Assembly: GCF_964355755.1 (NCBI RefSeq)
Contig: NC_092670.1
Location: forward strand, 12,523,201 to 12,587,200
DNA length: 64,000 nucleotides
Source of the DNA: Antedon mediterranea
Lineage: Eukaryota > Echinodermata > Crinoidea > Comatulida > Antedonidae
Direction of reading: 5' to 3'
Part shown: piece by piece, positions 46,386-49,300 of the stretch
How positions within the stretch are numbered: the first letter of the stretch is position 1
Layout of the letters: every line of letters begins with the position of its first letter
The notes under the pieces: model-generated
Databases searched by the model: none
Told to the model about the DNA's origin: nothing
Seen by the model: only the letters and a program-made list of their open reading frames with translations
Translations under genes and position numbers: made by a program

Positions 46386-49300
46386 TTATAGCTTGCTAGC
46401 TGATTGACTTAGAGCCATTTGTTTTAACAGAGTACTAGGGATCCAATGCTTACTATTTTCTGAAAAATACAAACAAAAATGGAGGCTTAGAAAATTATCA
46501 GCGCTATTAAATACAATTTTTCTCTGTGTCACAATCTAGAAATCATTTTATTCCGCAAAATCTTTATTTACTAAAACTGTAACTTTGTCCAAGTTACTTA
46601 ATCAGGTATAAGAAAGAATTTTATCTAAACATGACACGCTTTATCGCTTTTGAACAGTGTAAAATGTGATGAAAGGACCTGATTTTAATAGGGCACAATG
46701 GGCTACACATTTTTACAGTATTTGTGTTTCTTAAAATAGATTCAATTTTTTTAAGTAAACTATAATAAAAAAACTTACTGTAGATAGAATGGTAATGGCA
46801 GATCCTCTCGTAGACCTTTGGCAACCCCACCATGTTTTTTGCGTAGTACATTGGTCCTCCCATGTGCCTCGGCCAACCATACCCGTAAATCCTTAGTAAC
46901 AACAAAAATTAAGTGCAGTGATCGTATGGTGTTAATAAAGATTTATACTATTACTATTGTACCTAATTTAACTTAACTTCAAAGAAAAGTGTTCCCTAAA
47001 TAGGGATAGCACTTTGATATGGGTTGGTTTATTTTCCATCTTGTTCATTTCACTGCAAAGTGTTCCCTAAATAGGGATAGCACTTTGATATGCGTTGGTT
47101 GGTTTTCCCCTTGTTCATTTCACTGCAAAGTGTTCCCTAAATAGGGATAGCACTTTGATATGGGTTGGTTTGTTTTCCATCTTGTTCATTTCACTGCAAA
47201 GTGTTCCCTAAATAGGGATAGCACTTTGATATGGGTTGGTTGGTTTTCCCCTCGTTTATTTCACTGCAAAGTGTTCCCTTAGACGGAATTTCCAAAGGAG
47301 GGGTTTCACTGTATATTGAAACTATTTTTATTAAACTGTCATAAATGAATGAGCTTCGTGTAAAGAATATTAAAAAATCTATTGTTTTTTTATATTGGTT
47401 TTCTCGTATTGTTCATAGATTAAAAATAAAACAACAGACAATATTATTGTTTATATATGAGTTAGAAACTCCCCAAATGATGTCAATAACTCACCAGATG
47501 ATGTCAATAACTCACCAGATGATGTCAATAACTCACCAGATGATGTCAATAACTCACCAGATGATATCAATAACTCACCAGATGATGTCAATAACTCACC
47601 AGATGATATCAATATCCTCATCCTTGGCAGCTATTCCTTCCTCCAAAGCCTTGAAGCCTTCATTGATCAGTGAGTATAAACACCTCTCAATAATTTCCTG
47701 TAAAAGAAAAAATAGAAAAATAAAACAAAAGAAAGAAGCATAATAATATAAGTACAGTAGGCTATATAAAAAAGCTGTGCGAGTGAGTGGCCGAGGGGTA
47801 AAGAGTGTGGAATCGTAATTAAGTAGCCATAACATCAGCAAGGGTTCCAGGCTTACTCGCTCTATGGTTCTGGTGGTACAACGATACTTGGATAAGGACT
47901 AGTAGTAAGGGTTACCCCGGTGTAGGCCTACTAGTACACACACATCCACTGTCACACACAGACACTGATTATAACTGGGCCCTCTGGGAAAACAGTCTTT
48001 GACTGAAGAGGCTACCCAGTATAACAAAATAATAATAATAATAAATAAAAATACAACCCAAAAAATGTTACATTATATGTAATTTGATGATATTCCCTTA
48101 CTAATATTTACCTGAGGGGAGATACGTCGTCTTTTAATATCGTGTTTCTTGGAAAAATTAACAATAATTTCTTCCACTTCAACATCTCGCATATTGGCAC
48201 GACCTCCAGGCTTACCATAGTTATACCATCCTTTGCCTTTAAATAAATTTGCAAAATAATTAATATTTATTAACAAATTATAAATGCCTATTTTATTGCT
48301 GTATATACACTGACTTTAATGTATTTTGTTAAAAATAAACCTTGTTTCATAGTTAAATGAAAAAATCCAAAATATTCAACAACTAATTCTTTACACATTT
48401 AAAGCCCCATTCCCTACGTTTTTTAGATCTAATTTAAGATCACAAACTATATTTAATGTAAAAATAATACTATATGGTCCTATTGCGGTAACTTTTTTCG
48501 TCTTTAAACGGTTAAAAATGTGAAAAATAAGTCGATTCTAATAATTATAGCGGCCCGCTATAAATCCCAAAATGCATTGCGCGCGGATTGATATTTTTGT
48601 TTTTCACCTGTAATTCGCCCACTTTTCGATCGATCGTGAGGCCAAAACAAATGGAAGACTCCTCTAACTTTTCAGCGAAAATACCGGGTTTTCCCCAATT
48701 TGTATCAACGGAGTCTGGCAAAAATAGAAAGACAATTAATGCAGCAACTATACAACGTCAGGCTAGGTATATAGCTCGCGTACGATGTTCGTACGTTACC
48801 GATGTTTACCAGCTAGGCCTACAAAACTAAGCCTAGCTAGGCTAGGCCTAAGACCGTCCACGAGAGGTCGATCGCCGCAAGCTACTTAGGTAGTGCATTG
48901 TTTCTCACTTTTTATCATAATTTACCATAAAACGTACATCTAAGACAAGAAATGACATGGTTTAATGTTTTTAAAGTGATATATATGTATTATTTTCCAA
49001 AAAACGTCCAAAATTGCAGGGAAGGGGTCTTTAAGTTTAATAACATAGAACCACACCAGTTTTTTGTCCAAGCCTTCCAGCCTCCACGATCATATCACCA
49101 AGAGGTGAGTATCTCTGGCCCATACGCAACCGTTCATCAGCCCAGCGTGGGCCAACTAAGCCTAGCTCTTTTCTGATTTTATAACCAATATCAGCCCCTG
49201 TAATAAACAAAAATATTATGTTTCTTTTATTTTGTATTTATTATTTAGCAATATAAAGTAATAGAATCATGACAGTAATAACTAACATTACAACTTATAA

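Follow-up and report, generated by a model that had tools for sequence, protein, structure and literature searches.

The window (the whole 64-kb stretch of DNA that was analysed) contains on its minus strand an EHHADH-like gene in which one splice donor stands six times over within a 21-bp minisatellite (Table 1). The gene model, read from 55808 to 46386, comprises 711 codons whose sole stop is terminal, with none internal. Its product matches PDB 2x58, which we take to be the rat enzyme, with an E value of 2e-213, and the best PDB matches carry the name peroxisomal bifunctional enzyme. Both activities expected of EHHADH (MFE-1), hydratase/isomerase and 3-hydroxyacyl-CoA dehydrogenase, are represented among its Pfam domains (ECH_1, PF00378; 3HCDH_N, PF02737; 3HCDH, PF00725), and its C-terminus reads SASKL directly before the stop, thereby ending in SKL, the PTS1 signal, as expected of EHHADH (MFE-1). 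In a genome search for a second copy that might serve as a pre-expansion reference, exons 16 and 17 matched this gene's own two exons only, a result that does not prove absence; the gene is intact and seems to be present in one copy.

Exon 16 ends at 47600 in CTG/GTGAGT (the slash marks the exon boundary), and this junction is itself part of the repeat, each unit joining 14 nt of exon end to 7 nt of intron start, donor GT included. TRF finds 96% matches and no indels. On the window's minus strand the 18-mer CATCTGGTGAGTTATTGA is present six times, on the plus strand never, where base composition alone would predict about 3e-6 occurrences, and the first intron bases of the six donors follow one another at steps of 21. 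All six are the same from -14 to +7 except for a T/C difference at one site, and each pairs with U1 at -9.2 kcal/mol, the second-strongest value among the gene's 17 donors. A seventh unit (47473) reads TTG/GGGAGT; it has lost the GT, is no donor, and pairs with U1 at -5.0 rather than -9.2 kcal/mol. That the array sits on a true exon end is seen from the join of exons 16 and 17, which aligns without a gap to HIDVIY-LHGYGWPR of PDB 2x58. A pattern of two EHHADH units, allowing up to 2 mismatches, found no match elsewhere in the 354-Mb genome.

The preliminary description, which had recognised EHHADH and a real exon 16/intron 16 donor repeated six times into the intron at exact 21-base spacing and equal local strength, is upheld by these data: the 18-exon intact model, the PDB, Pfam and SKL evidence agree on the gene, phase 2 and the gapless join on the exon number, the 18-mer count and coordinates on the spacing, the gene model and unit positions on the extension into the intron, and near-identical bases and U1 energies on donor strength. 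It placed the array at 47477-47617, the right location with a start about 10 bases too high, and its statement that DIDII-W is conserved with vertebrates is partly so, DIDIIW aligning with HIDVIY of PDB 2x58.

Other repeats were noted in and around the gene. A second minisatellite in intron 16 has a 71-bp unit in which AAAGTG..TCCCTA/TAGGGA..CACTTT form an inverted repeat; searched against the genome, this array matched only itself, and no connection to the donor array was found. A 19-bp array of 10.9 copies lies inside EHHADH intron 2 (54760-54967). A 21-bp double unit resembling CCCAAATATGGTAGTGATATA occurs at 27006-27046 and 51613-51657 of the window and at two of the loci inspected below (L035, 776-816; L047, 419-467), and its presence at unrelated loci suggests that it is probably part of a dispersed element. 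A search of the 64-kb window against Rfam returned no family at gathering score.

Table 1. Features of the EHHADH locus (positions in the window) and the nine donor ladders
Feature	Positions	Strand	Unit	Donors	Description and evidence
EHHADH-like gene	46386..55808	-			gene model with 18 coding exons for 711 aa, SKL at the C-terminus
Exon 16	47600..47697	-			phase 2, 98 nt, last bases ATCATCTG; PDB 2x58 aligns across the join to exon 17 without a gap
Intron 16	46892..47599	-			708 nt
Exon 17	46779..46891	-			gene model and PDB 2x58 alignment
Exon 18	46386..46459	-			ends SASKL, stop; gene model
21-bp minisatellite	47467..47614	-	21 bp		7.0 copies across exon 16/intron 16 junction; TRF
Donor 1 (GTGAGT)	47594..47599	-			first base 47599; alone of six yields full protein
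Donors 2-6 (GTGAGT)	47489..47578	-			first bases 47578, 47557, 47536, 47515, 47494; each leads to in-frame TGA
Seventh unit, decayed donor GGGAGT	47468..47473	-			unit listing and U1 pairing
Second minisatellite, intron 16	46986..47279	.	71 bp		4.2 copies; TRF
EHHADH ladder			21 bp	6	PDB 2x58
DNAH1 ladder			23 bp	17	exon side: PDB 9d2f, E 3e-21
TDP2 ladder			31 bp	27	exon side: PDB 4gz2, E 1e-10
DHX8 ladder			37 bp	21	exon side: PDB 6hys, E 1e-19
Rabaptin ladder			17 bp	23	downstream exons joined: Pfam Rab5-bind 2e-21, PDB 1x79 0.001
EIF3L ladder			29 bp	14	neighbouring exons joined: PDB 6zvj, E 1e-46
Filamin ladder			25 bp	35	exon side: PDB 2j3s, E 2e-12
TUBGCP2 ladder			18 bp	13	exon side: PDB 6tf9, E 1e-20
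HUWE1 ladder			30 bp	3	exon side: PDB 9plr, E 1e-21

Consequences of choosing each EHHADH donor

Conceptual splicing of the gene model shows that donor 1, joined to exon 17, is the only one of the six to give the conserved 711-aa protein. Donors 2-6, as well as retention of intron 16, all give an identical 650-aa product that ends in DIDIIW and lacks the last 61 residues, SKL included. The later donors agree in this because a TGA opens every extension, as had been proposed and as the gene model confirms for all five. Since donors 2-6 converge on one product, the ladder is a binary choice between full and truncated protein and offers no series of isoforms. NMD usually requires more than 50-55 nt between a stop and the last junction; in the products of donors 2-6 the stop lies 130, 151, 172, 193 and 214 nt ahead of the exon 17/18 junction, and these transcripts are therefore likely NMD substrates. 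Because the gene is intact and apparently single copy, enough correct splicing must happen, and its intact coding sequence shows that donor 1 is used sufficiently, while giving no measure of the extent.

This convergence on one truncated product, with its stop so far ahead of the last junction, is also what would be expected if the array acted as a copy-number rheostat, in which the share of the later donors would rise with array length and NMD would clear the resulting transcripts, tuning EHHADH output. We regard this as the main rival to the explanation favoured below, and as rather unlikely. A close parallel is human CBS, whose repeat copies splice alternatively. Its 31-bp VNTR lies at exon 13/intron 13, c.1444_1467+7(16_21), and is described as units of 24 exon and 7 intron nt in 16-21 copies (PMC2630376), with lower enzyme activity reported at higher repeat number (PMC5188458). 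As in EHHADH, the unit spans a real donor junction in the gene of a metabolic enzyme (PMC2630376, PMC5188458, PMC1395315), whereas the CBS VNTR is polymorphic and linked to activity, the EHHADH array is known from one assembly, and gene, unit and species differ. By analogy it is plausible, as was suggested, that the truncated or NMD-targeted fraction depends on copy number, because CBS shares this architecture and reportedly becomes less active with more repeats. Alternatively, as was also suggested, the extra sites might serve as silent decoys for U1.

A further possibility is that RNA structure masks the extra donors, the units pairing with one another (GGUGA with UCAUC) so that the array would fold as a hairpin. 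A long hairpin is indeed predicted for the array RNA (z = -2.81 against whole-sequence shuffles), and the predicted cost of opening a donor rises, unsteadily, from 3.7 kcal/mol with one donor to 9-12 kcal/mol with six. However, in 136 of 600 trials tandem arrays built from a dinucleotide-shuffled unit fold equally well or better, hence the unit is not special, and the six donors are predicted to be about equally masked, donor 1 (10.1 kcal/mol) included. We therefore rejected masking as a means of discriminating among the donors and hold it to be highly improbable.

Donor ladders in nine conserved genes

The genome was searched for three GTRAGT donors in tandem, one pattern being restricted to GTGAGT. 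For this pattern and the two broader ones the matches listed run to contig C3, and for patterns with AAG, CAG, GAG or CTG as exon context they are complete. We inspected 35 arrays, the EHHADH array of the window included; two arrays with a common unit (L016 and L017) were counted separately, two blocks in one TUBGCP2 intron were counted as one, and an irregular match at C2:7477698 was left out. To locate exon ends, the sequence upstream of the first intact donor was initially read by eye in all three frames. At least nine of the 35 arrays begin exactly at a conserved exon end and carry 3 to 35 donors each (Table 1), so that reading the EHHADH junction as a curiosity of one gene was too narrow: eight further genes have the same design. 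In the four completely covered contexts, arrays at exon ends number 7 of 20 (AAG 0/5, CAG 2/4, GAG 3/5, CTG 2/6). The other 26 arrays showed no exon recognisable by eye, and ten of these, scanned in one frame each against Pfam at E 0.01, gave no match; this test is weak, since that library likewise failed to recover the joined pieces of DNAH1 and DHX8. The count of nine is a minimum because some arrays extend upstream of the region inspected, the repeat continuing upstream of the first intact donor at least in L011, L013, L022, L037, L041 and L043.

We claim no enrichment of tandem donors from match counts against the reversed motif (401 vs 194 for GTGAGT only, 455 vs 291 and 802 vs 430 for the two broader patterns; AAG 85 vs 53, CAG 59 vs 14, CTG 46 vs 13; GAG in the opposite direction, 30 vs 140), because the matches overlap and a few long arrays supply most of them. 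As a single motif, AGGTRAGT occurs less often than its reverse (18,680 vs 27,753). Among the arrays is one with a 31-bp unit, about 34 copies of CAG/GTAAGTAT at C1:40902567-40903660 (L019, L027); its unit also contains an acceptor-like TTTGTAG, and no exon was recognised next to the array.

The nine ladders are alike in construction. The donor 9-mer is invariant across copies in seven; DHX8 has two versions, and the copies of TUBGCP2 vary, with donor 1 (-14.1 kcal/mol U1 pairing) among the strongest. The end of the exon is identical to the bases preceding donor 2 over 8 bases in EHHADH and DNAH1, 9 in TDP2 and DHX8, 11 in rabaptin, 3 in EIF3L, 6 in filamin, 2 in TUBGCP2 and 19 in HUWE1, so the true junction lies within the arrays or directly beside them. 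Splicing from the first donor to a next exon keeps the reading frame in every one of the nine ladders. This join is crossed by a database match in EHHADH, EIF3L, HUWE1 (E 2e-33), filamin and TUBGCP2, and in rabaptin by a few residues; searches gave no match across it in TDP2, DHX8 and DNAH1, whose next exons were recognised by eye from known homologues.

Such recurrence bears on whether the EHHADH array is an assembly artefact or the product of a wrong gene model. Long near-identical arrays are prone to mis-sizing and a single assembly is at hand, but the complete 18-exon model has no internal stop and eight separate loci are analogous, and we consider an artefact the least credible explanation of all.

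The consequences of later donors divide the ladders in two. A stop falls within the extension for 5/5 later donors in EHHADH, 15/16 in DNAH1, 26/26 in TDP2, 20/20 in DHX8, 21/22 in rabaptin, 12/13 in EIF3L and 33/34 in filamin, the single remaining donor in each of DNAH1, rabaptin, EIF3L and filamin giving a frameshift; in TUBGCP2 (12/12) and HUWE1 (2/2) every later donor inserts residues in frame without a stop. Stops or frameshifts thus mark seven of the nine ladders and in-frame additions two. In TUBGCP2 (L046, minus strand; reverse complement about 1428-1850 and 3191-3583) the 18-bp array, although its units are about 80% identical, is open for about 137 codons in the exon's frame, as V-S-V-Y-I-E repeats, and another block of that intron is open for 131 codons; the protein could be lengthened in steps of 6 aa. 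HUWE1 (L047, minus strand) has its three in-frame donors within a 182-nt intron, each step adding VSPFLYNSIE, the end of which copies the exon's own end.

This division also weighs on a frame-sensing explanation, SOS, by which latent donors preceded by in-frame stops are normally kept silent and become active when the stop is removed or under stress. An in-frame stop lies between the authentic and the latent donor for all five extra EHHADH donors, as SOS would have it, and the seven stop or frameshift ladders agree with it. SOS is described for consensus donors that likewise lie downstream of the authentic one with in-frame stops ahead (PMC3510495, PMC8996931), whereas the latent sites of EHHADH are fixed-spacing copies of the authentic donor. 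The TUBGCP2 and HUWE1 ladders, however, are in frame without a stop, and SOS would leave such donors open; moreover, the accounts cited concern mainly human cells, and the mechanism is termed nebulous in a review (PMC8996931). We judge it distinctly unlikely to account for the EHHADH array.

Selection on the extra donors was examined in seven ladders, EHHADH and HUWE1 being left out. The donor 9-mer, with 25 mismatches (rotation mean 39.7, sd 15.1; P(<=obs) = 0.20), did not differ in this respect from the rest of the unit, so that selection was set aside as an explanation and these seven ladders give no sign of extra donors being kept or purged, in a test that is weak (DNAH1 and EIF3L have zero mismatches, and usable units number only 7/20 in DHX8 and 15/21 in TUBGCP2) and in which gene conversion would mask selection. 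That extra donors are conserved no more than the rest of the unit also counts against a copy-number rheostat, at least in these ladders. The DNA itself gives no indication that the ladders have a function; it shows instead that many near-equal donors are tolerated next to the correct one.

Origin and meaning of the donor array

The explanation that we favour, and consider reasonably probable, is that of a tolerated minisatellite born at the junction, whose exon-proximal donor does most of the splicing while NMD clears the leakage. We infer that the last bases of exon 16 and the first bases of intron 16 (14 + 7 nt) were duplicated in tandem and that the minisatellite then expanded into the intron, the exon-side copy retaining the coding sequence and remaining the working donor. 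The five other donors would stay mostly silent, since the spliceosome would in most cases settle on the donor nearest the exon, and any leaked transcripts would carry a stop and probably be cleared by NMD. On this view the array would be a tolerated passenger, which possibly lowers output slightly as copies are added, and it belongs to a class that recurs within this genome. Such a reading is favoured by the restoration of the conserved protein through donor 1 alone, by the loss of GT in the seventh copy, and by the eight further conserved genes with ladders in each of which the first donor is in frame. Against exon-proximal choice counts the behaviour of duplicated mammalian 5' splice sites, where a strong intron-proximal site can win, and the fall of CBS activity with more repeats argues against fully silent copies.

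A junction minisatellite that multiplies donors is of a kind already known, because there are precedents in CBS, IFI6 and human segmental duplicates. The isoforms of IFI6 are protein-coding and carry small in-frame inserts, whereas the extra donors of EHHADH lead to a stop. In that human gene (6-16, G1P3), minisatellite units contain splice donors, as in EHHADH, and two downstream units are reported to be used as donors, giving three mRNAs (PMC4526556). Tandem repeats at exon-intron boundaries, where the minisatellites lie here as well, are likewise reported to alter splicing in human segmental duplicates, with 27 intron modifications (PMC2812944); those cases are recent primate paralogues found by comparing exons and transcripts, whereas ours are conserved genes found through donor ladders. 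In a literature search that covered few subscription papers we found no report of donor ladders in EHHADH, nor of a donor-ladder class in one invertebrate genome.

Choice among equal neighbouring 5' splice sites is usually studied in engineered minigenes, and here a single animal offers nine natural series of 3-35 near-identical donors, mostly at fixed spacing, in conserved genes. A bolder reading, to which we give little credence, is that these ladders, in at least nine genes, form a natural class along which the spliceosome would count donors starting at the exon; that frame would be read before splicing if the in-frame ladders of TUBGCP2 and HUWE1 use later donors and the stop-bearing ones do not; and that variable ladders would be heritable copy-number dials on conserved genes. 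Because one genome holds ladders of both kinds, seven with stops or frameshifts and two in frame, frame-sensing becomes testable by ordinary RNA-seq, which would bear together on first-site rules, on cleaning by NMD and on the unsettled question of stop-codon sensing, while variation in array length would reveal whether such repeats tune their genes as reported for human CBS.
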